From the NCBI GenBank assembly GCA_025965695.1, contig JAOPWM010000309.1, forward strand, positions 1 to 38,846: a stretch of DNA of 38,846 nucleotides, in the 5' to 3' direction. The position numbers and the translations under genes are program-made. Below the pieces are notes generated by a model. That model made no database searches. It was not told where the DNA came from and was given only the letters and a program-made list of their open reading frames with translations. Position 1 is the stretch's first letter. Each line of letters opens with the position of its first letter. Source of the DNA: Blastococcus sp. GTDB lineage: Bacteria > Actinomycetota > Actinomycetes > Mycobacteriales > Geodermatophilaceae. Below, in pieces: positions 12,226 through 35,289 of the stretch.

Positions 12226-12304
12226 GTGCGCCTACCTCTCGCTCGCGGAGAACCCGCGGCGCGCAGGAGCTCCGTCCTTGCCGGGCGACGGGCGTCGTCC
12301 AGCC

Positions 12305-12390
12305 GGCTCTTCCCCTGGAGCACCTCAGACGGAGTAGAGGTTGCCGGGCAGCCAGCCAGGTGCTTGTCGCTGCCTCTCGTGAGCCAGAGC
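12305..12390 (-). promoter_or_regulatory. SAM riboswitch (S-box / SAM-IV type) upstream of metY
   Basis: Read on the minus strand, the metY leader shows the S-box core. P1 is formed by GGCTC and GAGCC. P2 is formed by GAGG-CAGC and GCTG-CC, closing onto the invariant CCCGGCAACC. A P3 stem follows (ACCTC with GAGGT), then GGTGCTCC, the usual SAM-contact region. A further hairpin (GCCGG...CCGGC, about 12280-12306) and a CGCGG/CCGCG hairpin near the metY ribosome binding site are likely expression-platform parts. S-box and SAM-IV RNAs shut off methionine genes when S-adenosylmethionine is high, and the position before metY-metX fits. I cannot decide between the SAM-I and SAM-IV classes by eye. 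Confidence 0.8.
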
Positions 12391-19624: not shown

Positions 19625-20029
19625 TCACTCCAGGCCGCTGATGTCGTCCGGGACGTCGACCGCGTTCTGGCGCAGCGCCTCCATCGGCACGATCTCGAGA
19701 GCCCGGGCATGGGTGGCGGCCAGGACGACGCCCGCGGCCGCGCCCGCCTGGTAGGCCTGGAGCCAGCGCGCGGCGACGACGCACCAGCGGTCGCCGGGCC
19801 GGAGGCCGGGAAAGCCGTACTCCGGACGGGGGGTCGACAGGTCGTTGCCGAGGTCGCGCTGCAGGGCCAGGAACTCGGCCGAGACGACCGCACAGACGGT
19901 GTGCGAGCCGAGGTCCTCGGGACCGGTCCTGCAGCGCCCGTCCCGGTAGAAGCCGGTCATGGGATCGATGCCGCAGGGCTGCAGGGGGCCGCCCAGCACG
20001 TTGAGCTCGGCCTGGGGATCGGGCTGCAC
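19625..20029 (-). CDS. DUF2237 family protein
   Basis: A 134-residue protein of the DUF2237 family. Signatures are NVLGGPLQPCGIDPMTGFYRDG, RTGPEDLGSHTVCAVVSAEF, GNDLSTPRPEYGFPGLRPGD and RWCVVAARWLQA. The fold is related to ClpP-adaptor-like small domains but no activity is established. Three conserved cysteines (in LQPCG, HTVCAV and RWCVV) are present. The GTG at 20029 has AGGAG seven bases upstream; the frame is open further but the extra sequence is unlike the family. It is divergent from the acetoacetyl-CoA synthetase gene with 67 bases between starts, which must hold both promoters. Confidence 0.87.
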   Translation of the reverse strand: MQPDPQAELNVLGGPLQPCGIDPMTGFYRDGRCRTGPEDLGSHTVCAVVSAEFLALQRDLGNDLSTPRPEYGFPGLRPGDRWCVVAARWLQAYQAGAAAGVVLAATHARALEIVPMEALRQNAVDVPDDISGLE

Positions 20030-20096
20030 GGTGAGCTCCTGCGCTGGTCGTCGGCGTGCCGTGGTCGGCGTCGGCACAGAATGGCATGGTGCGGGA

Positions 20097-22079
20097 GTGA
20101 GTGATCGCCCTGACGAGCTCTGGCGGCCGACCCCAGAGAGCATCCGTGCCACCCGCGTAGCCGCCTTCGCCGGCTGGGTCGAGGAGCGACGCGGCCTCTC
20201 CTTCGGCGATCCGACCGACTACGACACGCTGTGGCGTTGGTCGGTCGACCACCTCGACCAGTTCTGGGGCGACCTCGCCACCTGGACCGGGGTGCTGCCC
20301 GACGTCCCCGACGACGAGGTGCTGACCGACCGCGGCATGCCGGGTGCGGTCTGGTTCTCCGGCACGACGATCAACTACGCCGAGCAGGCCTTCCGCAATG
20401 CCTCCGACGACCACCCCGCGCTGATCGCGGTGGCCGAGGGCGCCGAACCGGTGGAGATGTCCTGGGCATCGCTGCGCGGCCAGGTCGGCGCGTTCGCCGC
20501 GACGCTGCGCCGGCTCGGGGTGCAGCGCGGCGACCGGGTGGCCGGGTACCTGCCCAACGTGCCCGAGGCGGTGATCGCCTTCCTCGCGGCGGCGTCCATC
20601 GGCGCCGTCTGGTCCTCCTGCGCGCCCGACTTCGGCAGCCGCGCCGTCCTCGACCGATTCGCCCAGATCGAGCCCACCGTGCTGGTCGCCGTCGACGGCT
20701 ACCGGTTCAACGGCAAGGACTACGACCGCCGGGACGTCGTCGCCGAACTCCGGGCCTCGCTGCCGACCGTGCGGACGACGATCGCCGTCCCCCGGCTCTT
20801 CCCGGACGAGGTGCCCGACGGCGTGCTCCCGTGGTCCGAGGCGGTCGCCGACGAGCAGCAGCCGCACTTCGAGGCCCTGCCGTTCGACCACCCGCTGTGG
20901 ATCGTCTACTCCTCCGGGACCACCGGGCTGCCCAAGGGGATCGTGCACGGCCACGGCGGAGTGGTGCTCGAGCAGCGCAAGGCGGCGGACCTGCACATGG
21001 ACGTCGGCGTCGGCGACCGCTTCTTCTGGTACGCCTCCACGGCCTGGATCATGTGGAACATCGCGACCTCGGTGCTGCTGTCCGGCGCGACGCTGATCGT
21101 CTACGACGGTGCCCCCGCGTATCCGTCGGTCGACGCCCAGTTCGCGCTGGCCGCCCGCACGGGGATGACCTACCTCGGTACCAGCGCCGGTTACCTGTCC
21201 GCATGCGAGAAGGCGGGGATCCGGCCGGGCGAGATGCAGGACCTGTCGGCCCTGCGGAGCATCGGCTCGACCGGCTCGCCCCTGCCGGCATCGGCCTTCC
21301 ACTGGGTCTACGACGCGGTGCGCCCCGACGTGCTGCTCGGCTCGCTGTCCGGCGGCACGGACGTCGCGACCGGCTTCATCGGGAGCTCGCCGCTGCTCCC
21401 CGTGACGGCGGGCGAGCTGCAACGGCCCAACCTGGGCGTGGCGGCCGCCTCCTGGAACGAGGACGGGCAGCCGGTCGTGTGCGAGCTCGGCGAGCTGGTG
21501 ATCACCGAGCCGATGCCGTCGATGCCGCTGTACTTCTGGAACGACCCCGACGGCACCCGCTACCGGGAGGCGTACTTCGAGCCGTGGCCCGGGGTCTGGC
21601 GGCACGGCGACTGGCTGGAGATCACCGACCGCGGCACCTGCATCATCACCGGGCGGTCGGACTCGACGCTGAACCGTGGCGGGGTGCGCATGGGGACGGC
21701 GGACATCTATGCGGCCGTCGAGTCCATCCCGGCCGTCCTCGACTGCGTCGTGCTCGGGGTGGAGCAGCCCGACGGCGGCTACTGGATGCCGCTGTTCGTG
21801 CAGCTGGCGCCCGGCGAGCAGCTCACCGACGAACTGGTCGGCACGATCCGGACGGCGATCCGCGAGCAGGCCAGCCCGCGGCACGTGCCCGACGAGATCA
21901 TCGCCGTCCCCGGCGTCCCGCACACCCGGACGGGCAAGCGGCTGGAGGTACCGCTCAAGCGGCTGTTCCAGGGGGCGGACCCGGCCAAGGCGGTCGGTCT
22001 CGGCACGGTGGACGATCCAGCCGCAGTCGACTACTACGCGCGACTGGCGCGGGAAAGAGCCGCGCGCTCGTTGCAGTGA
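20097..22079 (+). CDS. Acetoacetyl-CoA synthetase
   Basis: A 660-residue adenylate-forming enzyme that activates acetoacetate to acetoacetyl-CoA with ATP. The length and the N-terminal domain (ELWRPTPESIRATRVAAF, WSVDHLDQFWGDLATW) match acetoacetyl-CoA synthetases rather than acetyl-CoA synthetases. The AMP-binding core includes VYSSGTTGLPKGIVHGHGG, the YFWNDPDGTRYREAYFEPWPG segment, HGDWLEITDRGT, and GRSDSTLNRGGVRMGTADIY. The C-terminal GKRLEVPLKRLFQG contains the Lys of the A10 motif, the acetylation site known in relatives. It follows a divergent promoter region and is the last ordinary metabolic gene before the peptide cassettes. Confidence 0.93.
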   Translation: MSDRPDELWRPTPESIRATRVAAFAGWVEERRGLSFGDPTDYDTLWRWSVDHLDQFWGDLATWTGVLPDVPDDEVLTDRGMPGAVWFSGTTINYAEQAFRNASDDHPALIAVAEGAEPVEMSWASLRGQVGAFAATLRRLGVQRGDRVAGYLPNVPEAVIAFLAAASIGAVWSSCAPDFGSRAVLDRFAQIEPTVLVAVDGYRFNGKDYDRRDVVAELRASLPTVRTTIAVPRLFPDEVPDGVLPWSEAVADEQQPHFEALPFDHPLWIVYSSGTTGLPKGIVHGHGGVVLEQRKAADLHMDVGVGDRFFWYASTAWIMWNIATSVLLSGATLIVYDGAPAYPSVDAQFALAARTGMTYLGTSAGYLSACEKAGIRPGEMQDLSALRSIGSTGSPLPASAFHWVYDAVRPDVLLGSLSGGTDVATGFIGSSPLLPVTAGELQRPNLGVAAASWNEDGQPVVCELGELVITEPMPSMPLYFWNDPDGTRYREAYFEPWPGVWRHGDWLEITDRGTCIITGRSDSTLNRGGVRMGTADIYAAVESIPAVLDCVVLGVEQPDGGYWMPLFVQLAPGEQLTDELVGTIRTAIREQASPRHVPDEIIAVPGVPHTRTGKRLEVPLKRLFQGADPAKAVGLGTVDDPAAVDYYARLARERAARSLQ

Positions 22080-22372
22080 CGGTCGGCCGCGGCCGCCGAT
22101 CCTGCTGAGCACCCCGTGCGGCAGGAACCGCCGGCGACTCCTGCGCCGTTGCTGCGACAGGGACGAAGGTCCTGGGTGCCGAAAACGGAACCGATCCGTC
22201 CGCTAGCAGGTTGTGAGCGGCGCGCGTATGAGACGTTCCTGTACCGATCTCACTCACATCTTCGTGGCTTTTCTGCTTGCCGCCTGGCGAAAGCCTGTCA
22301 ATCCTTGGCCCCGCGCCGGAGGAGGTGATGAGTCCAGCATTTGGGGATCGCGCGCATGGGGTGGTGACGGAT

Positions 22373-22388
22373 CTCGGTCGGGACCGAG
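22373..22388. promoter_or_regulatory. 16-bp palindrome, possible operator
   Basis: CTCGGTC and GACCGAG flank two G bases. It sits eight bases before the 21-base word shared between both cassette leaders. A repressor or activator dimer could bind here; the binding protein is unknown. Confidence 0.4.
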
Positions 22389-22395
22389 TCGCAAC

Positions 22396-22416
22396 GATCG
22401 ACCGCCACCGACCGCG
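22396..22416 (+). promoter_or_regulatory. Leader motif shared by both peptide cassettes (copy 1)
   Basis: A 21-base word starting GATCGACCG, matching 18 of 21 positions with 29085-29105 in the second leader. It ends 380 bases before the start of peptide 1. It is a candidate common control site, though one match of this size in GC-rich DNA is weak evidence. Confidence 0.35.
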
Positions 22417-22796
22417 CTGCCTCGTCTTTCTTTCCGTCGCAACGCAATGGGATCTCTCGCTCGGTGTGTCGTTGCTTTTCACCTGCAATCAACCGTCCTC
22501 GACATGCCGTGCGAATGATGCTGTGAGGCCGCCTCGCTGATGACCATGGGGGACACGGACATACCGGTGGCGGTCGCGCCGCCGAACGGGTCCCCCGTAT
22601 CGCGTCGCGAGACGAGTCTTGGAGCACTTTGTCGACTCGTGCGGAATCTCTGGCCTCCAGACCGGTTCTGCGCGCTACCGGGAACCACAGAGCAGGCGCG
22701 ATCGACCGCACGGTCGCGTGAACGAACTCGATGCGGAAAGGCTCACGGGGGACACGGGGGAGCAGTGCCCACTGAAATCCGAGAGGGAGGAAGACC

Positions 22797-22931
22797 ATGT
22801 CGCAGAGCAGTGACAAGTGGCACGACGACGGCTGGCACAAGGACGACAAGGACAAGGGCTGGCACAAGTGGCACGACGACGGCTGGCACAAGTGGCACGA
22901 CGACAAGGGCTGGCACAAGTGGCACAAGTGA
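22797..22931 (+). CDS. Trp/His-rich repeat peptide, putative modified-peptide precursor 1
   Basis: A 44-residue peptide whose ATG has the strong box GGGAGGA five bases upstream. It has eight Trp (residues 8, 13, 22, 25, 30, 33, 39, 42), and every Trp is followed by His. The rest is almost only Asp (10), Lys (9) and Gly (4); there is no Cys, Thr, Pro, Val, Leu or Ile. From residue 7 it consists of two 17-residue repeats (7-23 and 24-40, identical at 14 positions) plus a partial third, KWHK. Only MSQSSD precedes the repeats, so any leader is very short. A 17-bp hairpin follows, then genes for an ABC exporter and a flavin hydroxylase. I infer a ribosomally made precursor whose indoles are oxidised before export. 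Alternatives are a metal-binding (His) peptide or a structural peptide. Function is unproven; that the gene is real is supported by the ribosome site, the repeats and the parallel in cassette 2. Confidence 0.82.
   Translation: MSQSSDKWHDDGWHKDDKDKGWHKWHDDGWHKWHDDKGWHKWHK
22815..22916 (+). repeat. Two 51-bp tandem repeats within peptide gene 1
   Basis: Units 22815-22865 and 22866-22916 (17 codons each). Codons 7-15 and 24-32 are identical at DNA level over 27 bases, and codons 19-26 and 36-43 over 24 bases. A partial third unit follows. The period is a multiple of three, so unit gain or loss keeps the frame, allowing the peptide to grow by whole Trp-His blocks. Confidence 0.9.
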
Positions 22932-22963
22932 CACCTGCGTAGCCACGGCCGAACATGTCCGGC

Positions 22964-23001
22964 GGTCGGCCCTCCGCGCCGGGAGGCGCGGGGGGCCGAC
23001 C
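22964..23001 (+). terminator. 17-bp hairpin between peptide 1 and its exporter (attenuator)
   Basis: Arms 22964-22980 and 22985-23001 form 16 Watson-Crick pairs and one G-U pair around GGGA. It begins 32 bases after the peptide stop and ends 36 bases before the exporter start. The same structure with the same core words (GGCCCTCCG, GCGCGGGGGG) stands at the matching place in cassette 2. A hairpin after a precursor-peptide gene is a familiar way to make more peptide mRNA than enzyme mRNA. Confidence 0.8.
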
Positions 23002-23037
23002 TCGGACGGCCAGTCCACCGACGAATGAGGTTTACCC

Positions 23038-25074
23038 GTGTGGGACGTCGTGCGCACGCTGGTGCGCCCTGACACACCGGAGGACGAGGGACTGGTCGAG
23101 GCCGCTCCCACGGTGATGGTGCGTGAGGTCTATCGCCGGTTCTGGCCCTACGCCCGGCCGCTGCGCTGGTGGCTGCTGATCAGCGTGCTGCTCGCCAGCG
23201 CGGGGCTACTCCTCCAGGGCCTGAGCGTGTGGCTGTCCAAGGTCCTGGTCGACGAGGTCCTCGTTCCCCGGAACTTCGCCGCCTTCCCACCGCTCGCGGG
23301 CGCGTACGTCGGCATCGCGCTGGCCACGGGTGCCATCGGCTTCGTCGGCGACTACGTCGCGGCCTGGACCGGGGAGAACTTCCTGCACCGGCTGCGAACC
23401 GCGGTGTTCACCCATCTCCAGACGCTGTCGGTCGGTTTCTTCGATCGGCGCCGGCTCGGGGACATCATCAGCCGGCTCACCAGTGACATCGTCGCCATCG
23501 AGGGCGTGGTCCTGTCCGGCGTGGCCGGGCTCGTCATCTCCGTCCTGAGGATCCTCCTCTTCGGTGGCGTGCTGTTCGTCCTCGACTGGCAACTGGCGCT
23601 GATCTCCCTGATCGTGGCCCCGCTCTTGTGGGTCACCGCCCGTTCCTTCTCCCGGAGGATCAAGCTGGCGTCCGGCGAGGTCCGCCGGCGCAGCGGCTCG
23701 ATCGCCACCGTCGTCGAGGAGAGCCTGGGCAACGCCCCCATGGTCCAGGCGTACGGCCGGGAGCAGGCGGAGGTCCGCAGGTTCACCGGGCAGTCCCGGG
23801 CCAGCGTCGCGGCAACGCTCCGGGCCGAGCGGATCGGTGGCCTGTTCACACCCCTCATCGACCTGGTGCAGGTCCTGGGCGTGATCACCATCGTCGGCGT
23901 GGGAGCGTGGCAGCTCGCCGCCGACCGCATCACCCTCGGCGAACTGCTCGCGTTCCTGCTCTACCTGTCCATGCTCTACGGCCCGCTCAGTGGGCTGGGG
24001 CACATGTCCACCGGACTGTTCGCCGCCGCCGCCGGCGGAGAGCGGATCCTGGAACTGCTGGATGAGCAGCCCGAGGTGCGCCGCCCCGCGCATCCCGTGC
24101 CGCTCGGTAGGGCAGTCGGCCTCATCGAGGTCGAGGATGTGGGCTTCCGCTACCCCGGCACGACCACGGACGTGCTGCAGGGCATCAGCTTCACCGCTCG
24201 GCCCGGCCGGACGACGGCGCTGGTCGGCGTCAGCGGCGCGGGGAAGTCGACGATCGCGCGCCTGATCCTGCGGCTGTACGACCCGACCTCGGGCCGGATC
24301 ACCCTGGACGGACACGACCTGCGCGACCTCGACCCGGCGGAGCTGCGGGCGAACATCGCGATGGTGCTGCAGGAGACGCTCCTGCTGGACGACACGGTCG
24401 CTGAGAACATCAAGGCGGGTCGCCCGGACGCCAGCGAGGACGAGATCATCGCCGCGGCGAAGGCGGCCGACGCGCACGAGTTCATCGAGCGGCTGCCCGA
24501 TGGCTACGCCACCCGGGTCGGCCAGCGCGGGCGCCTGCTGTCGGGCGGCCAGCGGCAGCGCGTGGCCATCGCCAGGGCCATGGTGCGCGACGCTCCCATG
24601 CTCCTGCTCGACGAGCCCACCGCCGGTCTGGACGACCAGGCCAGCGAGCGCATCCTCGGCCCCGTGCGCCGGTTGATGGCCGGCCGGACGACGATCGTGA
24701 TCTCGCACGACCTGCTGACCGTGGCCGAGGCGGACCAGATCCTCTATCTCGAACGGGGGCGGGTCGTCGAGGCCGGCACTCATGAGCAACTGCTGAGTGC
24801 GGACAACGGCTACGCGCACCTGTACCGCCTACGGCACCCGGAGTCCGCACGGGTGGCCGTCCGTCGCGGCCCCGGAACGGATTCGGTCGGTCGGCACCGC
24901 GCACCCGGCCCCGCATCGGCTGGTCTCACCGAGCCGCTGCGGGACGCACCGTCGAGCCCGCTGCCGTTCAGCAGCCCGGCGCCGGCGGGGTCCCCCGGAG
25001 TTGGACGACTCGTTCCGGTTCCTGACCGTGGGGGCGCCGAGCCCTGGGACGGCGCGGCGCGCATACCCAGCTGA
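23038..25074 (+). CDS. ABC exporter (membrane plus ATPase half-transporter), cassette 1
   Basis: A 678-residue type I ABC exporter half, working as homodimer. Residues about 35-320 form the six-helix membrane domain (ARPLRWWLLISVLLASAG at helix 1; GENFLHRLRTAVFTHLQTLSV at the coupling region). The ATPase domain follows, with Walker A GVSGAGKST from residue 397, signature LSGGQ from 501, Walker B LLLDEP with Asp525-Glu526, and His557 in the switch ISHDL; all catalytic residues are intact. No C39 peptidase domain precedes the membrane part, so leader removal, if any, is done elsewhere. The last 75 residues are a Pro/Gly/Arg-rich tail not usual in this family. The GTG start is supported by the aligned start in the paralogue (WDVVRT). 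It lies 106 bases after the peptide gene and 39 before the hydroxylase gene. Confidence 0.93.
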   Translation: MWDVVRTLVRPDTPEDEGLVEAAPTVMVREVYRRFWPYARPLRWWLLISVLLASAGLLLQGLSVWLSKVLVDEVLVPRNFAAFPPLAGAYVGIALATGAIGFVGDYVAAWTGENFLHRLRTAVFTHLQTLSVGFFDRRRLGDIISRLTSDIVAIEGVVLSGVAGLVISVLRILLFGGVLFVLDWQLALISLIVAPLLWVTARSFSRRIKLASGEVRRRSGSIATVVEESLGNAPMVQAYGREQAEVRRFTGQSRASVAATLRAERIGGLFTPLIDLVQVLGVITIVGVGAWQLAADRITLGELLAFLLYLSMLYGPLSGLGHMSTGLFAAAAGGERILELLDEQPEVRRPAHPVPLGRAVGLIEVEDVGFRYPGTTTDVLQGISFTARPGRTTALVGVSGAGKSTIARLILRLYDPTSGRITLDGHDLRDLDPAELRANIAMVLQETLLLDDTVAENIKAGRPDASEDEIIAAAKAADAHEFIERLPDGYATRVGQRGRLLSGGQRQRVAIARAMVRDAPMLLLDEPTAGLDDQASERILGPVRRLMAGRTTIVISHDLLTVAEADQILYLERGRVVEAGTHEQLLSADNGYAHLYRLRHPESARVAVRRGPGTDSVGRHRAPGPASAGLTEPLRDAPSSPLPFSSPAPAGSPGVGRLVPVPDRGGAEPWDGAARIPS

Positions 25075-25113
25075 CGTTCCCCCTGCCCCTCTGTTTCCTC
25101 CCGGAGATGATCG

Positions 25114-26337
25114 ATGAAGACCGTGTGCATCGGCGCCGGCCCTGCTGGGCTCTACTTCGCCATCCTCATGAAGCTGGCCGACCCCGACTGCGACATCACG
25201 GTCCTGGAACGCGACCCGCAGGGTGCGACCTACGGATGGGGTGTCTGCTTCTCCGACGACCTGTTCGAGCTCCTGTACGACCACGATCGGGAGAGTGCCC
25301 GGGCGGTGCGCCGCGCGTCGGTGCTCTGGCGGCGCCAGGAGACCCACCTCGACGGGGGGGTCTCCCGCATGGGGGGCTACGGGTTCGCCATCCTGCGGGC
25401 GAGATTGCTCGAGGCGCTCACCCAGCGGGCAGTCCAGCTCGGCGTCCGGGTGCAGCACGACCACCCGGTCGAGGACCTCGCCGAATTGGCCGACGCCGAC
25501 CTGATCGTGGCGGCGGACGGTGCGGGCAGTCGGATCCGCCAGCTCAGCGGGGACGGCTTCGACACACGGGTGGACACGGGGCACAACCCCTACATCTGGC
25601 TGGGCACGGACAAGGTGTTCGACGGACTCGTCTTCGCCGCCGAGCCGACTCCGGGGGGCTGGATCTGGTTGCACGCCTATCCGTCGAGCAGCAGCGTCAG
25701 CACCTGTGTCCTGGAGTGCAGCGAGGAGACGTGGCGCTGGCTCGGGCTGGACCAGCGCGAGGAGTCCGACGGCCTGCAACTGCTGGAGAAGCTCTTCGAG
25801 CAGGTGCTGGAGGGCCACTCGCTGATCAGCCAGTCGCGCGGTGAGCCCGCTCGCTGGCTGCGGTTCCGGGATGTGAGCAACGAGTCCTGGACGCACGACA
25901 ACGTGGTGCTCATCGGGGATGCTGCCCACACGACGCACTTCACCGTCGGGTGGGGTACCAAGCTGGCCCTCATCGACGCCGTGGAGCTGGTGAGCAGCCT
26001 GCGGTACTACAGGGACGACCTCCCGATGGCGCTCCGTGACTTCGACGAACGGTCACGTCCGTTCCTGCGGCGGATCCAGGCCGCTGCTCGCGGCAGCATG
26101 GACTGGTACGAGCACGCCGACGAATACCTTGCCGGCCGCACCGCCGCGGAGGCGGCCTACGCCATGGCCACGCGGAACTCGTCCGGGCCGCGTCGCAGCT
26201 TCCGGCGGTTCCGGCTCGCGCAGCGGCCACCGATGTGCTGGGTCCGGGACGCCCGTCAGACTGCCCATCGGATCCGCCAGGCCGCAGAGCGGGGGGAGTA
26301 CGCCTTCGTGCCGCACAGGACGTCCCGTCGCGGCTGA
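25114..26337 (+). CDS. FAD-dependent aromatic monooxygenase (VioD/aryl-CoA hydroxylase-like), cassette 1
   Basis: A 407-residue single-component flavin hydroxylase. FAD-binding GAGPAG is at residues 7-12, the DG motif at Asp135-Gly136 (IVAADGAGSR) and the GD motif at Gly268-Asp269 (LIGDAAHTTHF). The middle part NPYIWLGTDKVFD, HAYPSS, CVLECSEETW and the GWGV motif at 41-44 closely recall VioD, which hydroxylates the indole ring in violacein synthesis. They recall equally the hydroxylase domain of anthraniloyl-CoA and salicylyl-CoA monooxygenases. This group puts OH on electron-rich aromatic rings using NAD(P)H and O2. Next to a Trp-rich peptide and an exporter, hydroxylation of peptidyl-Trp is the natural hypothesis; a CoA-bound aromatic substrate is the alternative. 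ATG with GGAG seven bases upstream. Confidence 0.9.
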   Translation: MKTVCIGAGPAGLYFAILMKLADPDCDITVLERDPQGATYGWGVCFSDDLFELLYDHDRESARAVRRASVLWRRQETHLDGGVSRMGGYGFAILRARLLEALTQRAVQLGVRVQHDHPVEDLAELADADLIVAADGAGSRIRQLSGDGFDTRVDTGHNPYIWLGTDKVFDGLVFAAEPTPGGWIWLHAYPSSSSVSTCVLECSEETWRWLGLDQREESDGLQLLEKLFEQVLEGHSLISQSRGEPARWLRFRDVSNESWTHDNVVLIGDAAHTTHFTVGWGTKLALIDAVELVSSLRYYRDDLPMALRDFDERSRPFLRRIQAAARGSMDWYEHADEYLAGRTAAEAAYAMATRNSSGPRRSFRRFRLAQRPPMCWVRDARQTAHRIRQAAERGEYAFVPHRTSRRG

Positions 26338-26399
26338 CGGCCGTGCCAGCCGCTGACCAGAAGCTCCACATCCGTGACGACGACGTCCGGGTGCCGGTG

Positions 26400-26728
26400 A
26401 GGTCGCGGCCTACCCGGTCGAGCCGGTACGACCGCGCGCGGGACCTCCACCCCCTGATGCCGTCGGGTACGCCGGTGAGCAGGGCGGCTGGGACGTCGCC
26501 GGGGCGGGTGTAGACCGCGGCCCATGGGTGGAAATCCTCGTCCAAGGCGGCGTCGCCGACCTGCACGGACCCGGCGAGCTCGACCAGCGGGAGGTCCTGC
26601 CCGTTGACCCGCAGGTGCCCGGCGCGGAACCGCTGGGGGCATGCGGTCTGGAGCGCCCGATGGTCGGCCTCGATCAGGGCTGGGGTGTCGCCGGTGCCGC
26701 TCCGGTACGGCCCGGCGACCAGGATCAT
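26400..26728 (-). pseudogene. Decayed DUF4406 / nucleoside deoxyribosyltransferase-like gene
   Basis: From the ATG at 26728 the minus strand reads MILVAGPYRSGTGD, then RALQTACPQRFRAGHLRVNG, LPLVELAGSVQVGDAALDE and FHPWA, matching the N-terminal two thirds of small DUF4406 proteins related to nucleoside 2-deoxyribosyltransferases. After FHP the expected CDAVLRIxGxSxGAD region is degraded, and fragments of it (VEVPRAVVPAR) appear in another frame, implying a frameshift or deletion. No good ribosome binding site. It fills most of the 536-base gap between cassette 1 and the acyl-CoA dehydrogenase gene; I see no other gene there. Confidence 0.6.
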
Positions 26729-26873
26729 CAGGCGAGCCCTCACCGGCCGAACCCCAGGGCCGCCGCATGACGTGGCGTTGCTCACCCGGGCGGATGACCG
26801 GACGTGCGGGGGGCATGTCCACCGGCCAAGGTGTACGTGATCATCCGCCGAGCCGAGTGGAGAGCGACCGACG

Positions 26874-28133
26874 ATGACGTCGACCGACAGCGCCGCCGAG
26901 ACCGAGATCTGGGAGCCCAAGCCTCCGGAGCTGCTGCCCCCGTGGCACACGCCGGAGCGGGAGAAGCTGCAGGAGCAGGCCCGCCGGTTCGCGATGGACG
27001 AGGTGCTGCCGGTCGCCGACGAGCTCGACCCGCAGAGGGGGGAGATCCCGGCCTCGCTGCTCTCGAGGCTGGCAGAGCTGGGTTACTTCGGCATCACCGT
27101 CACGGCGGAGCACGGTGGCCTGGGCCTCGGCGTCTTCGAGTACTGCATGGTGTCGGAAGAGCTGGCCCGCGCCTGGATGAGCACCGCCAGCATCCTGGCC
27201 CGCTCGCAGGGCCTCGGGACGGCGATCCCCGATGACGAGCGCCGGGCCGAGCTGCTCGCCCGCAGCGCGCGCGGTGACTGGATCGGTGCGATCGCGCTGT
27301 CGGAGCCCGACGCCGGCTCGGACCTGGCGGGCGTCTCCACCCGGGCGGTGCTGGACGGCGACGAGTGGGTGGTCACCGGTCGCAAGCGCTGGTGCGGCAA
27401 CGCCAAGGCGGCCGACTTCATCCAGGTGCTGGTGCGTGAGCGGGACCCGGAGCCGGGGGAGTCCCGGTCCAAGGGGCTGGTGAACCTGCTGCTGGAGAAG
27501 AAGCGGGGCGAGTTCCCCGAGGGGCTCTCCGGCTATCCGATCGACAAGGTCGGTTACCACGGCTTCCTCACCTGGGACCTGACCTTCGACGGCGTGCGGA
27601 TCCCCGCCGGCAATGTCATCGACGAGGCGGCTGCCAGCGACGAGGAGGGGGATGAGGCCAAGCGCGCCGGCTTCGCAGAGGCGCAGAAGTTCCTCAACAC
27701 CGCCCGCGTGCACACCGCCGCCCGCGCCGTCGGCCTGGCCCGGGCCGCCCTGGAGGACTCGATCCTCTACCTGCAGGAGCGCGAGCAGTTCGGCCACCCG
27801 ATCGGCGACTTCCAGGCGCTGCGGTTCAACGTGGCCGAGATGGCCGCGCAGATCGAGCAGTCGCGCGCCTTCTACCGGCAGGTGGCACACCTGCTCGACC
27901 TGGGCGTCCCCTGCGAGAAGGAGGCGTCGATGGTGAAGCTCGAGGCGACCGAGATGTCGGTGCGGGTGACCAACCAGGCCATGCAGCTGCACGGTGGGAA
28001 CGGGTACACCACCGAGCGGCAGGTGGAGCGGCACTGGCGTGACGCCCGGCTGACCACCATCTTCGAGGGCACCAGCGAGATCCAGAAGCGGATCATCAGC
28101 GACCGCCTGTTACCCCGGAGCCCGCTGACCTGA
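26874..28133 (+). CDS. Acyl-CoA dehydrogenase
   Basis: A 419-residue FAD flavoenzyme that introduces a C2-C3 double bond in acyl-CoA. The three-domain layout is complete: N-terminal helices with GYFGITVTAEHGGLGLG, the beta domain with ALSEPDAGSDLAGVSTRA and VTGRKRWCGNAKAADF, and the C-terminal helices with LQEREQFGHPIGDFQALRF and QLHGGNGYTTE. The catalytic base is the Glu in IFEGTSEIQKRII. Substrate length is unknown. It lies between the two peptide cassettes on the same strand but is separated by remnants and spacers. Only one copy exists, so I do not count it as part of the duplicated system. Confidence 0.92.
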   Translation: MTSTDSAAETEIWEPKPPELLPPWHTPEREKLQEQARRFAMDEVLPVADELDPQRGEIPASLLSRLAELGYFGITVTAEHGGLGLGVFEYCMVSEELARAWMSTASILARSQGLGTAIPDDERRAELLARSARGDWIGAIALSEPDAGSDLAGVSTRAVLDGDEWVVTGRKRWCGNAKAADFIQVLVRERDPEPGESRSKGLVNLLLEKKRGEFPEGLSGYPIDKVGYHGFLTWDLTFDGVRIPAGNVIDEAAASDEEGDEAKRAGFAEAQKFLNTARVHTAARAVGLARAALEDSILYLQEREQFGHPIGDFQALRFNVAEMAAQIEQSRAFYRQVAHLLDLGVPCEKEASMVKLEATEMSVRVTNQAMQLHGGNGYTTERQVERHWRDARLTTIFEGTSEIQKRIISDRLLPRSPLT

Positions 28134-28238: not shown

Positions 28239-28709
28239 ATGACCCAGTCGCCCGGCTTCGGGACCCCCGACCCGTTCCAGCCGCCGCCCGAGCCTCCGCC
28301 CCGGACGCGGGCCTCCGATGCCGACCGGGAGTCGGTCGTGCGGACGCTGCACGACGCCGTTGCCCGCGGACTGCTGACCTTGGAGGAGGGCGATGAACGA
28401 GTGTCCACCGCGTACGTCGCCCGGTTCATGGACGACCTTCCGCGGCTGACCGCAGACCTGCCGCCGGCACCCGCACCGACTCAGGTGGCACCCGGGTGGC
28501 GAGCGCTGGCGCTGCTGGCATGGCTCCAGCTGCGCACCGTGCCGGCCGGTATCTCCTGGCACAGCGTCCGCGCCAGGCCCCGGCTGGCCGTGGCTCTCGC
28601 CGTCGCGCTCGTGCTGGCAGTGGTCGCGCTCAGTGCGATCACTGGGGGTGGCGAAGCCTTCGAGCACGGCCGCGGCGTCGAGCAGTTCGAGCATGTCGGC
28701 CCACGCTGA
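28239..28709 (+). CDS. DUF1707 domain membrane protein
   Basis: A 156-residue protein. Residues 1-22 are Pro-rich; residues about 23-70 form the DUF1707 domain (RASDADRESVVRTLHDAVARGLLTLEEGDERVSTAYVARFMDDLPRLTADLP, read in parts), a SHOCT-like helical module often found before membrane segments in actinobacteria. One hydrophobic segment follows (about 122-140, LAVALAVALVLAVVALSAI). The tail is His/Glu-rich (GEAFEHGRGVEQFEHVG). Such proteins are thought to be membrane-associated regulators or scaffolds. The ATG has GGAGGAG seven bases upstream. A hairpin follows its stop, separating it from the leader of cassette 2. Confidence 0.83.
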   Translation: MTQSPGFGTPDPFQPPPEPPPRTRASDADRESVVRTLHDAVARGLLTLEEGDERVSTAYVARFMDDLPRLTADLPPAPAPTQVAPGWRALALLAWLQLRTVPAGISWHSVRARPRLAVALAVALVLAVVALSAITGGGEAFEHGRGVEQFEHVGPR

Positions 28710-28729
28710 CTGGCCTTCAGCGGGCTCCC

Positions 28730-28747
28730 GCCGGCCACACGGCCGGC
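28730..28747 (+). terminator. Terminator-like hairpin after the DUF1707 gene
   Basis: GCCGGCC and GGCCGGC form a perfect 7-bp stem with an ACAC loop, 20 bases after the stop. There is no T-run. Confidence 0.6.
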
Positions 28748-28932
28748 AGACCTCCTGGTGGTGCGGAAGCCCTCCGATGCTCCGAGGCGAGATGCATCGC
28801 ACAACGATCATGGTCGAGCGAGTTCGCGCTGAAGGTTCGCGGTGGCCGACGAGCAGGTAGTCGGCTGGGAACACTCTGCGTCGTGACTGATCGCAGCATG
28901 TGAGGCCACGCCGGGCGACGTCGGTTTCCGGG

Positions 28933-28979
28933 CGATCTGGTTCCGAATTGGGGCGCATGTCCTTGCGTCCCCCAGATCG
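28933..28979 (+). promoter_or_regulatory. Large two-part hairpin in cassette 2 leader
   Basis: Outer arms CGATCTG (28933-28939) and CAGATCG (28973-28979) pair perfectly. Inside, GGGGCGCA (28950-28957) pairs with TGCGTCCCC (28964-28972) with one bulged T. It could be a folded RNA element or a binding site. Confidence 0.4.
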
Positions 28980-29084
28980 GCATTGGAATCCTTTGCACGC
29001 CCACCCCGCGCGGGTGAGCGTGCAACAACCGGACAGCGTTCTACGAGTGCGGCCGGCAACGCGTTGGGGCCGTACCCGGGTGGT

Positions 29085-29105
29085 GATCGACCGACACCGG
29101 CCGTG
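29085..29105 (+). promoter_or_regulatory. Leader motif shared by both peptide cassettes (copy 2)
   Basis: Matches 18 of 21 positions with 22396-22416; ends about 300 bases before peptide 2. The word CTCGGTCGG is also near both copies, downstream here and upstream in cassette 1. Confidence 0.35.
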
Positions 29106-29129
29106 CGCCGGCGCTGTCCAACTCGGTCG

Positions 29130-29177
29130 GTGCGAAGGTGCTCCTTCGCACGGGCGCGACCGGCCCGGGAGGGCCGG
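29130..29177 (+). promoter_or_regulatory. Two adjacent hairpins in cassette 2 leader
   Basis: GTGCGAAGG/CCTTCGCAC (29130-29138, 29143-29151) is a perfect 9-bp stem with a TGCT loop. CCGGCCC/GGGCCGG (29160-29166, 29171-29177) is a perfect 7-bp stem with a GGGA loop. Their tandem order suggests a structured untranslated leader or a terminator/antiterminator pair. Confidence 0.45.
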
Positions 29178-29406
29178 CAGGGCTGTGGTAGTGCCGACGA
29201 GACCCGCAGTCGGGCCTTGGCCATCGACGACTTCCCAGGCCATCGCTCCCGCGGCTCCGCCCAAGGGTCCCGATTCGAGTTTTCCCTGGGTCGCCGATCC
29301 AGAGGGGGTGGCGCGGGTGCGCGTTCCGCACCTGCTCCATCGCAGTCCCGTTCGACGACTTCACGGGGATCCCGGTTCGATCCGAATTCCAGAGAAGGGA
29401 CCCGTC

Positions 29407-29517
29407 ATGACTGACCGGCAACGGAGGCGCGACGACGACAAGTGGGGCGGCTGGTGGGGCGGCTGGCGCAGGGATAGGCACGACGGCCGGTGGGGTTGGT
29501 GGGGCGGCTGGGACTGA
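29407..29517 (+). CDS. Trp/Gly-rich peptide, putative modified-peptide precursor 2
   Basis: A 36-residue peptide, with GAAGGGA six bases before its ATG. It has exactly eight Trp (13, 16, 17, 20, 29, 31, 32, 35) in two blocks, WGGWWGGW (13-20) and WGWWGGW (29-35), plus eight Gly, eight Arg and seven Asp; no Cys, Ser, Leu, Ile, Val or Pro. The first 12 residues (MTDRQRRRDDDK) are charged and could be a short leader; the first Trp follows D-K exactly as in peptide 1. A matching hairpin, exporter and flavin hydroxylase follow in the same order. The DNA has three copies of TGGGGCGGCTGG. I infer a second precursor of the same system, with His replaced by Gly in the core. A membrane-active W/R-rich peptide is also imaginable. 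The gene lies in frame at the end of a longer open frame, so the start rests on the ribosome site. Confidence 0.8.
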   Translation: MTDRQRRRDDDKWGGWWGGWRRDRHDGRWGWWGGWD

Positions 29518-29556
29518 TCGCCAGCTGATCGCTCCGGTCCAGTCCGGTCCGATCCG

Positions 29557-29595
29557 GGGGTGGCCCTCCGTGCCCTGAGCGCGGGGGGTCACCCC
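29557..29595 (+). terminator. 17-bp hairpin between peptide 2 and its exporter (attenuator)
   Basis: Arms 29557-29573 and 29579-29595 form 14 Watson-Crick and three G-U pairs around CCTGA. It begins 39 bases after the peptide stop and ends 35 bases before the exporter ATG. Structure, core words and spacing match the hairpin in cassette 1, and several differences keep pairing through wobble, so it looks selected. Confidence 0.8.
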
Positions 29596-29630
29596 TTGTG
29601 AAAGGGAAAAGCCCGACGAGAGGTGCGCCC

Positions 29631-31691
29631 ATGTGGGACGTTGTGCGCACCATGCTGCGGCCGGGTGCGCCGGAGGACGACGGACTGGTCGAGGCCGCCC
29701 CGCCGGTACCCGTCCGCGAGGTCTTCCGCCGGTTCTGGCCCTACGCCCGGCCGCTGCGCTGGTGGTTGCTGGTCAGCATGATCCTGGGGAGCGCCGGCCC
29801 CGTCCTCGAAGGCGCCGGTATCTGGCTGGCCAAGGTGCTGGTCGACAACGTCCTCGTGCCCCGCGACTTCACCGCGTTCGCACCGCTGGCAGCCGCCTAC
29901 GTAGGCATCACCCTCGCCACCGGCTTGATCGGATTCATCGGCGCATATCTCACCGCGTGGACCGGTGAGAACTTCCTGCACAGGCTGCGCACGTCGGTCT
30001 TCGCCCACCTCCAGACCCTCTCGGTGGGCTTCTTCGACCGCCGCAGGCTCGGGGACATCATCAGCCGGCTCACCGGGGATGTCATCGCCATCGAGAGCCT
30101 CGTGCTCTCCGGCGTCGCGGGGGTCTTCACCGCGCTGCTGAGGATCCTCCTCTTCGGCGGTGTGCTGTTCTTCCTCAACTGGCAGTTGGCCCTTATCTCA
30201 CTGGTCGTGGCCCCACTGTTCTGGGTCGCCGCTCGTTCCTTCTCCCGCCGGATCAAGCAGGCCAGCACCGAGGTCCGCCGACGCAGCGGCTCCATCGCCG
30301 CCGTGGTCGAGGAGAGCCTCGGCAACGCCCCGTTGGTCCAGGCCTACGGCCGCGAGCAGGCGGAGGTCCACCGGTTCACCACCCAGTCACTGGGCAGCGT
30401 CGCCGCCGCGTTGCGGGCGACGCGGATCAGTGCGCTGTTCACGCCACTCGTCGACCTGGTGGAGGTCGCCGGCGTGATCACCATCGTCGGGGTGGGAGCG
30501 TGGCAGCTCAGTGCCGGCCGCATCAGCCTCGGCGGGTTGCTGGCCTTCCTCCTGTACCTGTCCATGCTCTACGGCCCGATCAGCGGGCTGGGCCAGCTGT
30601 CCACCACGATGTTCGCGGCCGCCGCCGGTGCAGAACGGATACTGGAACTGCTCGACCAGCAGCCCGAGGTGCGCCGACCCGAGCACCCTGAGGCGCTCGG
30701 ACGCGCAGCCGGGCGGATCCGGGTGGAGGACGTCGATTTCCGTTACCCCGGCACGACCGCGGACGTGCTGCGCGGCATCGCCTTCAGCGCCGAACCGGGC
30801 CAGATCACCGCCCTGGTCGGCCTCAGTGGCGCGGGGAAGTCCACGCTGGCACGCCTGATCCTACGGCTGTACGACCCGACCGGTGGGCGCATCACGCTCG
30901 ACGGCCACGACCTGCGAGACGTGGACCCGGCCGAGTTGCGGGGCAACATCGCGATCGTGCTGCAGGAGACCCTGCTGCTCGACGCCAGCGTCGCGGAGAA
31001 CATCCGGGCCGGCCGTCCGGATGCCACCGGCGAGGAGATCGTGGCCGCGGCGAAGGCGGCCGACGCCCATGAGTTCATCGAGAGATTGCCGGAGGGCTAC
31101 GCCACCCGCGTCGGCCAGCGCGGCCGCCTGCTGTCGGGCGGCCAGCGCCAGCGGGTCGCCATCGCCCGGGCCATGGTGCGTGACGCTCCCGTCCTTCTAC
31201 TCGACGAGCCCACCGCCAGCCTGGATGCACAGGCCAGCGAGCGCATCCTGGCCCCGATACGTCGGCTGATGGCCGGTCGCACCACCATCGTGATCTCGCA
31301 CGATCTGCTCACTGTTGCCGAGGCCGACCAGATCCTGTACCTGGAGCGGGGGCGGATCGTCGAGGCGGGCACTCACGACCAACTGCTGCGGGCCGACAAC
31401 GGTTATGCCCACCTGTACCGGCTGCGGCACATGACATCCGACCCGGTGGACGGCCGCGCTGACGGCTCGCACGGCCGTCACGAAGCGCACGGGCGTCACG
31501 AAGCGTCTGAACCCGAGACCCGGCGGGTCGGCGTTGCCCTAGGGCCCGACTGGGACGGTCCGCCTCCGGACGGCCCGAGCTGGGACGGTCCGCCCCCGAA
31601 CGGCTTCCCGTCGCGTAGGCCGCCGGTCCCGATCCCGCAGGGCGAACCGGAGGAGTTCTGGCGTGGTCCGCCACCGCCTCGCGTCCGCTGA
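29631..31691 (+). CDS. ABC exporter (membrane plus ATPase half-transporter), cassette 2
   Basis: A 686-residue paralogue of the exporter in cassette 1, colinear without visible gaps over the first 600 or so residues and very similar throughout. Walker A GLSGAGKST again starts at residue 397; LSGGQRQRVAIARAM, LLLDEPTASLD and IVISHDL are intact. The ATG at 29631 has GAGAGG about seven bases upstream and aligns with the GTG of the paralogue. The tail after HLYRLRH is unrelated to that of copy 1. It holds GRHEA repeats and a WDGPPP repeat, then ends in a Pro/Arg-rich stretch. Since the tails follow the conserved ATPase and differ like the peptides do, they may be pair-specific. The hydroxylase gene follows after 41 bases. 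Confidence 0.93.
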   Translation: MWDVVRTMLRPGAPEDDGLVEAAPPVPVREVFRRFWPYARPLRWWLLVSMILGSAGPVLEGAGIWLAKVLVDNVLVPRDFTAFAPLAAAYVGITLATGLIGFIGAYLTAWTGENFLHRLRTSVFAHLQTLSVGFFDRRRLGDIISRLTGDVIAIESLVLSGVAGVFTALLRILLFGGVLFFLNWQLALISLVVAPLFWVAARSFSRRIKQASTEVRRRSGSIAAVVEESLGNAPLVQAYGREQAEVHRFTTQSLGSVAAALRATRISALFTPLVDLVEVAGVITIVGVGAWQLSAGRISLGGLLAFLLYLSMLYGPISGLGQLSTTMFAAAAGAERILELLDQQPEVRRPEHPEALGRAAGRIRVEDVDFRYPGTTADVLRGIAFSAEPGQITALVGLSGAGKSTLARLILRLYDPTGGRITLDGHDLRDVDPAELRGNIAIVLQETLLLDASVAENIRAGRPDATGEEIVAAAKAADAHEFIERLPEGYATRVGQRGRLLSGGQRQRVAIARAMVRDAPVLLLDEPTASLDAQASERILAPIRRLMAGRTTIVISHDLLTVAEADQILYLERGRIVEAGTHDQLLRADNGYAHLYRLRHMTSDPVDGRADGSHGRHEAHGRHEASEPETRRVGVALGPDWDGPPPDGPSWDGPPPNGFPSRRPPVPIPQGEPEEFWRGPPPPRVR

Positions 31692-31732
31692 CGTCGTCCG
31701 ACACCACCCCGCCGCACCCTCGGAGGTCATCG

Positions 31733-33109
31733 ATGAAAATCGTGTGCATCGGCGCCGGGCCCGCCGGCCTGTACTTCGCCATCTCGGCGAAGCTGCAAGA
31801 CCCCGACCGAGACATCACGGTCGTCGAACGGGACCCGCATGGTGCGACCTACGGATGGGGGGTCGTCTACTGGGACGACATGCTCGATCTGCTCTTCATC
31901 AACGACCAGGTGAGTGCCCGGGCAGTGCGCCGGGTGTCCACGCTGTGGAAGGACCAGGAGATCCGCCTCGGCGGCGACGTCGCCCATCTCGGGGGTTACG
32001 GCTTCGCCACCCAACGTGCCGCATTCCTCGAAGCGCTGGCGCAGCGGGCCGGCCGGCTCGGCGTCGCGGTGCACTACGAGCACCCGGTGGAGGACCTGAC
32101 CGAGTTCGCCGATGCGGACCTGATCGTGGCGGCCGACGGCGCGGGGAGCCGAGCCCGTCAACTGCACGGGGACCACTTCGGCACCCAGGTGGAGACGGGG
32201 CACAACCCCTACATCTGGCTGGGCACGGACAAGGTGTTCGACAGCTTCGTCTTCGCCTTCGAGCAGACGCCCGCGGGGTGGATCTGGTTCCACGCCTATC
32301 CGTCGAGCGACACCGTCAGCACCTGCATCGTGGAGTGCACGGAGGAGACCTGGCGCGGGCTGCGGCTCGATCAGCTGGGCGAGGACGACGGCCTCCGGGT
32401 GCTGGGGAAGATTTTCCAGCGACCGCTGGAGGGTCGCTCGCTGATGAGCCAGTCGCGCGGCGAGCCGGCCCGCTGGCTGCGGTTCAAGCAGGTGACCAAC
32501 ACGACGTGGTGCCACGGGAACATGGTCCTCATCGGGGACGCCGCCCACACCACGCACTTCACCATCGGATCGGGCACTCGCCTGGCGGTGATCGATGCGG
32601 TGGAGCTGGTGCGCAGTTTGCAGGACTTCCCGGACGACCTGTCTGCGGCTCTCCGGGACTTCGACGAGCGGGCTCGCCCGAACCTGCGGCGGATTCAGTC
32701 GATGGCCCGCAACAGCATGCACTGGTACGAGCACGCCGACGCCTATCTCGACGGCCGCGACGCCGTGGGGGCCGCATTCGCCATGGCCGGGCGGAACTCA
32801 CCGCAGCCCGGCTGGCGCACCCGGCGGTTCCGGCTCGAGCAGCTTCCGGTGGCCCGACGCGTGGAGAGCGCGGTCGGGACGGTGCGCCGGCTACGCCTGG
32901 CGGGGCGGCGTGGCGAGATCCCGTTCGTGCCGTCCTGGCATCCCGGCCCCCCACCCGCGGGACCACGGCCAGCCGGTCCCCCGGCGGCGACCGGCTCCGA
33001 ACCGCAACCGTCGCCCGCACTGGACGGCGCGGCGGAAGCGCAGGACACACGTCACGACGCACAGCGAGCGGAAGCGGAGCCGGTCGCGGCCCCGCCGATC
33101 ATCCGCTGA
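31733..33109 (+). CDS. FAD-dependent aromatic monooxygenase (VioD/aryl-CoA hydroxylase-like), cassette 2
   Basis: A 458-residue paralogue of the cassette 1 hydroxylase, colinear over about 390 residues. GAGPAG at 7-12, AADGAGSR, NPYIWLGTDKVFD, CIVECTEETW and LIGDAAHTTHFTIGSGT are conserved, so FAD and substrate regions should work. Differences cluster near the early GWGVxxxDD loop (CFSDDLFELLYDHD versus VYWDDMLDLLFIND), which may tune the substrate. A 55-residue Pro/Ala-rich tail (GPPPAGPRPAGPP) is added compared with copy 1. Its last 11 bases overlap the convergent glucosidase gene. As for copy 1, Trp hydroxylation on the adjacent peptide is inferred, not shown. Confidence 0.9.
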   Translation: MKIVCIGAGPAGLYFAISAKLQDPDRDITVVERDPHGATYGWGVVYWDDMLDLLFINDQVSARAVRRVSTLWKDQEIRLGGDVAHLGGYGFATQRAAFLEALAQRAGRLGVAVHYEHPVEDLTEFADADLIVAADGAGSRARQLHGDHFGTQVETGHNPYIWLGTDKVFDSFVFAFEQTPAGWIWFHAYPSSDTVSTCIVECTEETWRGLRLDQLGEDDGLRVLGKIFQRPLEGRSLMSQSRGEPARWLRFKQVTNTTWCHGNMVLIGDAAHTTHFTIGSGTRLAVIDAVELVRSLQDFPDDLSAALRDFDERARPNLRRIQSMARNSMHWYEHADAYLDGRDAVGAAFAMAGRNSPQPGWRTRRFRLEQLPVARRVESAVGTVRRLRLAGRRGEIPFVPSWHPGPPPAGPRPAGPPAATGSEPQPSPALDGAAEAQDTRHDAQRAEAEPVAAPPIIR

Positions 33110-34811: not shown

Positions 34812-35197
34812 CAGGCAGAGAACGTGTGGTGCACGGCCTCGACGTTGTTGCCGTCGGGATCGCGGAAGAACACCCCGTAGTAGCCCTGGTGGTACTCCGG
34901 CCAGACCCGAGGCTCGTGCAGGATCTCCGTCCCCGACGCCTGCGCCGCGGCGAAGACGTCGTCCACGGCCTGACGGGACGGGGCCGTGAGCGCGAGGTGC
35001 ACCGGACGGTTGCCCGCGCCCTCGATCGGTCCGAGCCACAGCTTCGGGAACCCGTCCGGGCCGCTGAGCCCGACGACGGCGCCGAAGCGCATGGCCTCGC
35101 GGAGCCCGCAGGGCGCGAACACCCGGATGTAGAAGTCGGCCGCGGCGTCGACGTCCGCGCACTGCAGTGCCAGGTGGTCCAGCATGCGTCCGGACAC
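34811..35197 (-). CDS. VOC-fold (glyoxalase/bleomycin-resistance-like) protein
   Basis: A 128-residue vicinal-oxygen-chelate protein. LDHLALQCADVDAAADFYIRVF starts the first beta-alpha-beta-beta-beta unit with a His metal ligand; PVHLALTAP begins the second; YYGVFFRDPDGNNVEAVHH carries the final Glu. Such proteins isomerise glyoxal adducts, bind toxins or act as dioxygenases; the substrate is unknown. The GTG at 35197 and the ATG at 35185 are both possible starts. It is the first gene of a two-gene unit with the glucosidase. Confidence 0.88.
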   Translation of the reverse strand: MSGRMLDHLALQCADVDAAADFYIRVFAPCGLREAMRFGAVVGLSGPDGFPKLWLGPIEGAGNRPVHLALTAPSRQAVDDVFAAAQASGTEILHEPRVWPEYHQGYYGVFFRDPDGNNVEAVHHTFSA

Positions 35198-35289
35198 TAG
35201 CCGGGACGGGCGTCGCGGGGCGCTGCTTTGATGGGGCCGCGTCGTTCAGATGCAGGCGCCGGGATCGTCCCGGCGCAGGAGGGAGAACT

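Follow-up and report, generated by a model that had tools for sequence, protein, structure and literature searches.

Tryptophan-rich repeat peptides encoded beside VioD-like flavin monooxygenases in Actinomycetes: candidate precursors of modified, secreted peptides

Introduction

A short open reading frame (ORF) of Blastococcus sp., an actinobacterium of soil type, encodes a peptide in which eight Trp residues, each followed by His, are arranged in repeats, upstream of genes for an ABC exporter and a flavin monooxygenase (FMO). This raises the question of whether the frame is a gene and, if so, of what becomes of its product. The question is addressed here with the window, i.e., the whole stretch of 38,846 nucleotides analysed (assembly GCA_025965695.1, contig JAOPWM010000309.1), and with related loci from other genomes, designated below by L and G numbers, respectively.

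The peptide 1 gene and its repeats

The peptide 1 gene (Table 1) translates as MSQSSDKWHDDGWHKDDKDKGWHKWHDDGWHKWHDDKGWHKWHK, followed by the stop codon. The product contains 8 Trp, 8 His, 10 Asp, 9 Lys and 4 Gly among its 44 residues. Its Trp residues, at positions 8, 13, 22, 25, 30, 33, 39 and 42, precede His in eight cases out of eight, as stated in the preliminary description of this DNA, where Trp was said never to occur without His. The two 17-residue units with a partial third that were described there are also recovered: 14 of 17 positions are the same in residues 7-23 as in residues 24-40, a third unit begins with residues 41-44, and the peptide matches itself at 17 of 21 residues when shifted by 17. 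At the DNA level, Tandem Repeats Finder reports 22813-22925 with a period of 51 and a score of 189, the highest of the 19 rows obtained for the window. When the residues of peptide 1 were shuffled, which tests their order and not their composition, eight WH pairs never occurred in 200,000 shuffles (maximum 6).

The pattern GGNTGGCAYAARTGGCAY occurs three times in the source genome, always inside the peptide 1 gene, and has no match in the 107 other genomes of the family sampled, G096 (carrier of L032/L043) being outside this sample. A GGGAGG motif located 6 nt 5' of the ATG is plausibly, from its sequence, a ribosome-binding site, and the frame is presumably translated. Searches of Pfam, NCBIfam and PHROGs gave no match for this peptide or for the second peptide of the window.

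Two cassettes in the window

Peptide 1 belongs to a cassette of three genes on the + strand, with 106 nt between peptide gene and exporter gene and 39 nt between exporter gene and FMO1. A paralogous cassette (29407-33109) contains peptide 2, exporter 2 and FMO2; for exporter 2, whose longest ORF starts at 29598, the start was set by similarity to exporter 1. About one-fifth of the residues of the window peptides are Trp, and neither peptide contains Cys. When the cassettes were compared using blastn, the exporter and FMO genes aligned and nothing else did. According to Pfam, exporter 1 consists of transmembrane and ATPase domains only, with no peptidase domain; with TIGR01193, the model of double-glycine-leader bacteriocin exporters, it scores 252 bits, below the cut-off of 523.85.

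Table 1. Positions of the cassette features in the window
Feature	Position	Strand	Basis or remark
GGGAGG, likely ribosome-binding site of peptide 1	22785..22790	+	read by eye
Peptide 1 gene, eight Trp-His pairs	22797..22931	+	44 aa; translation, Tandem Repeats Finder, shuffles, relatives
First 17-residue unit, residues 7-23	22815..22865	+	self-comparison of peptide 1
Second 17-residue unit, residues 24-40	22866..22916	+	14/17 identical to first unit
ABC exporter 1	23038..25074	+	Pfam PF00664 (transmembrane) and PF00005 (ATPase)
FMO1, VioD-like flavin monooxygenase, proposed Trp hydroxylase	25114..26337	+	profiles, PDB search, predicted structure
Peptide 2 gene, Trp-Gly type with eight Trp in 36 aa	29407..29517	+	translation, relatives
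ABC exporter 2	29631..31691	+	76% identical to exporter 1
FMO2	31733..33109	+	68% identical to FMO1

When the DNA preceding five peptide genes (up to 800 nt each) was aligned using MAFFT, no conserved block was convincing by eye, and no repeat of at least 20 nt in the window frames a cassette as the mark of a mobile element. The Rfam and tRNA search of the window returned no tRNA and one Rfam match, a SAM-IV riboswitch located 10 kb from the cassette (12269-12384, - strand, 87.1 bits). The PmbA/TldD family takes part in the maturation of some RiPPs; a metallopeptidase gene of this type lies 20 kb from peptide 1 (694-2082, + strand).

Cassette 1 is flanked by an acetoacetyl-CoA synthetase gene (19959-22079) and an acyl-CoA dehydrogenase gene (26874-28133), and cassette 2 by a DUF1707 gene (28239-28709) on one side and, on the other, by an alpha-amylase-family gene of opposite strand (33099-35369). 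Both sites (22080-26873 and 28710-33109, one per cassette) are empty in some close relatives (L205, L206). In G034 (L205), a gap of about 285 nt without cassette separates synthetase and dehydrogenase, and the match to the window extends to 29048, within the region upstream of peptide 2; in L206, the amylase-family gene comes directly after the DUF1707 gene. Moreover, the synthetase was found in the 1.5 kb next to the dehydrogenase in 21 of 29 relatives' loci, a spacing too small for the 4.8-kb insert. It was not found in that 1.5 kb in the other eight, among them Geodermatophilus ruber, where a cassette is present at the site. Judging from the empty sites, the cassettes seem to be gained and lost as whole blocks.

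Pairing of Trp-rich peptides with one clade of FMOs

An FMO of at least 64% identity was found in five of 112 genomes of the family, the source genome being counted. Immediately 5' of the exporter, a Trp-rich ORF is present in three of the four others, namely Modestobacter RYN_176 (L032 = L043, WH type), G. ruber (L035 = L045) and Modestobacter RYN_168 (L036 = L046); the contigs of the fourth, G034 (L033, L034), are truncated. Two short FMO patterns searched against GTDB contigs located 55 loci. At E <= 1e-85, the FMO was present in 9 of 397 genomes of an order-level sample and in 45 of 394 of a class-level one, each including the source genome, and the 55 stretches examined correspond to every listed match of these samples outside that genome. 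Families missing from the VIA-align listing were not counted as absent. Where needed, family names were taken from contigs in common with named records (e.g., Frankia for L151 and L050).

Peptides were sought using two rules. The first calls for 4 Trp, with 17 of 24 residues belonging to WGHDKNQE, and misses L058. The second, set after this miss had been noticed, calls for 3 Trp, with 20 of 24 residues belonging to WGHDKNQECS, and gives one spurious-looking extra match in L064, which also has a clear peptide. Among 123 FMO rows, 46 have a Trp-rich ORF within 3.6 kb, all of them inside one clade of 54 rows. After merging near-identical rows (54 to 49 in the clade, 69 to 68 outside, hence 117 distinct FMOs), a Trp-rich repeat ORF was found within 3.6 kb of 41 of the 49 distinct FMOs of this clade, which is the smallest that contains all positives (FastTree, midpoint root, support 0.911), vs none of the 68 outside. 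In the 934,275 bases surrounding 67 outgroup loci, neither rule gave a match. The pairing extends over several families, with cases in Frankia, Streptomyces, Saccharopolyspora, Pseudonocardia and Geodermatophilaceae.

Four of the eight in-clade misses are contig ends (L044, L154, L155, L163); L044 has both exporter and FMO, but its contig starts within the exporter. The real exceptions, with an FMO and no peptide nearby, are L056, L144, L146 and L167. L146 is a second FMO copy of Saccharopolyspora spinosa, with no peptide near, and its match comes in two pieces in different frames. Because the peptide-less L158 and L166 stand just outside the clade, its border is not sharp. In an IQ-TREE phylogeny of 66 rows, a clade of 24 rows (support 100/100) unites all 22 peptide-linked FMOs then known with L044 and L056.

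That the peptide gene is conserved in association with exporter and hydroxylase-like genes, as the preliminary description implied, is supported by the 17 distinct loci that have the FMO together with an exporter at least 50% identical to that of the window and in which the region upstream of the exporter is covered. All 17 keep an open Trp-rich ORF (L058, with a GTG start, belongs to them only by the loosened rule), and none shows a broken ORF beside intact exporter and FMO genes.

Two further observations concern more distant FMOs. L147 and L148 carry tandem FMO genes (41-42% identical to FMO1), near which no Trp-rich ORF was found. The best match of a plasmid search was a Pseudonocardia plasmid FMO (41% identity), in a stretch with no repeat-like Trp-rich ORF.

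Features common to the peptides

The 45 tabulated peptides, L058 not being among them, have 5-17 Trp each. In the 43 that are not of the WH type, Gly comes next after 392 of 460 Trp and His after three. The WH type comprises two peptides, peptide 1 and that of L043, in which 16 of 16 Trp precede His. Thus, the Trp-His pairing put forward in the preliminary description finds no support as a general rule. With Trp as the common feature, any joint modification of Trp and His, cross-linking or binding of copper or haem may at most be a trait of the WH lineage. The two FMOs of this lineage share five residues not seen in 40 other clade FMOs; at one of these, FMO1 position 176, both have Ala and all 40 others compared have Phe.

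Among 13 peptide pairs, which overlap and whose alignments run through repeats, 12 have a pN/pS ratio of 0.05-0.45; these values suggest that the peptides are under protein-level constraint. For the WH pair, the ratio of 1.42 derives from 1.5 synonymous changes over 16 sites and thus argues neither for nor against constraint.

N-termini and export settings

Three export settings were distinguished in 41 loci. An ABC exporter similar to those of the window and a short N-terminus characterize 17 loci (5 Geodermatophilaceae, 6 Saccharopolyspora or other Pseudonocardiaceae, 6 Pseudonocardia). The six Streptomyces peptides have an apparent Sec signal, recognized by eye from a basic start, a hydrophobic stretch and AxA. 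Finally, the 18 Frankiaceae loci encode 23 peptides with a lasso-type leader, all of which fit Y..P.[LI]...G.F...T; with the NCBIfam lasso leader model NF033521, five of nine such peptides pass the cut-off, three are below it and one has no match. Neither peptide 1 nor peptide 2 matches NF033521, and no leader was recognized in either. The window-type exporter is absent from the Streptomyces and Frankiaceae loci, where peptide and FMO are kept. Within these sequences, the Trp-rich core and the FMO are the constant elements, the N-terminus and the predicted export route the variable ones.

A lasso-type B2 protease was found in 17 of 17 Frankiaceae genomes searched (G677 left out) vs none of 16 genomes of other families, a co-occurrence that is suggestive only, since the compared genomes differ in ancestry. 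Among the best B2 loci, taken from 10 of the 17 genomes, six have a homologue of an Asn-synthase-type cyclase (tblastn, E <= 1e-5 within about 10 kb) and four have none. The cyclase-less loci (L198, L199, L200, L203; Frankiaceae) come with an ABC exporter; in L200, Pfam identifies the B1-like protein as PqqD and its neighbour as an ABC exporter. Such loci make it plausible that, in Frankiaceae, leaders are removed in trans from Trp/Gly peptides encoded elsewhere. A scan of shared neighbours found no Asn-synthase-like cyclase among the genes common to the peptide-FMO loci.

Two Trp/Gly lasso-leader peptide genes per FMO occur in L157, L161, L162, L164 and L168. Lasso-leader ORFs are also found beside B2 loci (L194 near 7843, L197 near 7955, L201 near 8616 on the - strand), and the cores of these short ORFs contain R[WF]GWGRD.

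Single-linkage clustering of neighbouring ORFs in 40 loci gave, beyond the FMO and ABC genes, one larger cluster, of 16 response-regulator-like genes in 14 loci (11 of the 18 lasso-type loci, 3 of the 22 others), whose representative is a response regulator by Pfam; the other clusters involve at most six loci. An example is L159 8699-9529, with similar genes in 13 other loci, mostly of Frankiaceae. A LuxR-type response regulator gene (L073 7322-7942) lies just 5' of a peptide-less Streptomyces outgroup FMO. The loci have no genes of a small-molecule pathway in common.

FMO1 as a relative of VioD and QhpG

The best PDB match of FMO1 by sequence is VioD (E 6.2e-55; next family 4.1e-15). The AlphaFold2 model of FMO1 (pLDDT 86.8, pTM 0.87) also aligns best with VioD (Z 43.5, rmsd 2.0, 348 residues, 31% identity; next family Z 33.5). 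With the VioD model NF053547, FMO1 scores 199.4 bits, far below the cut-off of 620. It is likewise below the cut-offs of the QhpG model NF049967 (28.8 for 240 bits) and of the salicylyl-CoA 5-hydroxylase model NF006101 (361.1 for 1078 bits, covering positions 1-362 of 768). FMO1 may work like VioD and QhpG, while being assignable to neither of their models nor to salicylyl-CoA hydroxylase.

VioD hydroxylates an indole at position 5, its substrate being a small bis-indole molecule (PMC5577590). VioD (PDB 8gqr, 3c4a), the nearest solved relative of FMO1 by sequence and predicted fold, thus has the indole ring as target; it differs by this small-molecule substrate and its five-gene pathway, and FMO1 is about 30% identical to it. 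QhpG, as presented in PMC7876137, is a flavoprotein whose target for hydroxylation is a Trp of a polypeptide, and an ABC exporter for this polypeptide is specified by the same operon. The QhpC/QhpG/QhpF system of quinohemoprotein amine dehydrogenase therefore offers a precedent for cytoplasmic Trp hydroxylation on a small polypeptide by a flavoprotein. However, in QhpC a single Trp is modified, a radical SAM enzyme introduces thioether crosslinks and QhpE cleaves the leader (PMC7876137), whereas the window peptides are rich in Trp, lack Cys and show no recognized leader. Moreover, QhpG is described there as requiring a pre-crosslinked substrate and a partner, so that repetitive unstructured peptides are perhaps an unnatural substrate for an enzyme of this kind.

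Discussion

We consider it probable, with room for doubt, that peptide 1 is matured into a RiPP-like secreted peptide. The cytosolic FMO of the same cassette would hydroxylate the Trp indoles of the peptide, probably at C5 by analogy with VioD, and the ABC exporter of the cassette would then export the modified, leaderless-looking peptide. The window would hold two such cassettes, with different peptides (Trp-His type and Trp-Gly type). The association of FMO and Trp repeats, kept throughout the clade under three export settings, makes an action of the FMO on Trp the simplest account, and hydroxylation is the likeliest reaction. As expected of RiPPs, a precursor gene beside the gene of a candidate modifying enzyme is found for 41 of the 49 in-clade FMOs.

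The FMO could act on Trp with another outcome, such as ring opening, formation of an oxindole, halogenation, or Trp-Trp or Trp-His cross-links giving a rigid or coloured peptide. The pairing (41/49 vs 0/68) fits equally well with such chemistry, and the fold neighbours of FMO1 indicate that flavin enzymes of this fold class are chemically diverse; since the closest relative by both sequence and fold is nevertheless a hydroxylase, VioD, we view these outcomes as unlikely. It appears quite unlikely that the peptide is not an FMO substrate, being instead a free secreted peptide (antimicrobial or structural) or an FMO-binding helper, while the exporter carries a small molecule made by the FMO. That VioD acts on a small bis-indole (PMC5577590) would agree with this, as would the general likeness of exporter 1 to MsbA-type and multidrug exporters. 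However, the loci share no small-molecule pathway, peptide and FMO persist without the exporter in 6 Streptomyces and 18 Frankiaceae loci, and it is their Trp content that the peptides have in common.

Binding of metal such as copper or of haem was proposed in the preliminary description. Of the 44 residues of peptide 1, 8 are His and 10 Asp; through these it could alternatively be an exported binder of copper/zinc or haem, tuned by the FMO, and several Pseudonocardia peptides are likewise rich in His and Asp. Yet His is rare or absent in many relatives that keep Trp repeats and FMO (3 of 460 Trp precede it), which argues that metal or haem binding is not the family-wide purpose; we hold this explanation to be very improbable. 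As for the ORF being no gene and standing open by chance in GC-rich repeat DNA, slippage can indeed create short GC-rich repeats, but similar ORFs accompany 41 distinct clade FMOs and none outside, none is found in the control bases, and pN/pS is below 1 in 12 of 13 pairs. The order shuffles, the control loci and the conserved position led us to reject a chance ORF, whose probability we regard as close to negligible.

Returning to the proposed hydroxylated peptide, two other known systems deserve comparison. Lasso peptides (NF033521, B1/B2) have the type of leader with which the Frankiaceae relatives start; differences are the absence of such a leader from the window peptides, the Trp/Gly repeat of the core, and the lack of any recognized cyclase among the shared genes of the peptide-FMO loci. 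Mussel-type DOPA proteins are made of short low-complexity repeats in which an aromatic residue is hydroxylated before or on secretion. The likeness lies in this principle alone, i.e., short low-complexity repeats with an aromatic residue whose hydroxylation is here proposed, since these proteins are animal, Tyr-based and unrelated. By analogy, a hydroxyindole-bearing, oxidisable extracellular polymer, either pigment or adhesive, may be offered as a weak guess at the end use.

In the open-access literature searched (titles and abstract openings, subscription papers being mostly outside), no pairing of a Trp-rich repeat peptide with a VioD-like FMO is described. The present comparisons point to a little-noticed kind of modified, secreted peptide. 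It is possible, if on balance doubtful, that the pairing represents an undescribed and widespread actinobacterial class of RiPPs, namely template-encoded poly-hydroxytryptophan peptides with two core genes, for the Trp-rich repeat peptide and the VioD-like FMO, and with interchangeable N-termini serving ABC, Sec or lasso-type export, forming oxidisable extracellular polymers. Such a class, if real, would be a bacterial, Trp-based counterpart of the DOPA proteins. The proposed pathway, if true, would provide a route, based on two genes, to ribosomal peptides with multiply hydroxylated Trp, a peptide Trp hydroxylase able to act on repetitive substrates, and a simple genomic signature for finding more, a Trp-rich repeat ORF beside a VioD-like FMO. 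It would also give a likely role to FMOs that are distant from the family models (VioD, salicylyl-CoA hydroxylase), as found in Frankia, Streptomyces, Saccharopolyspora, Pseudonocardia and Geodermatophilaceae.
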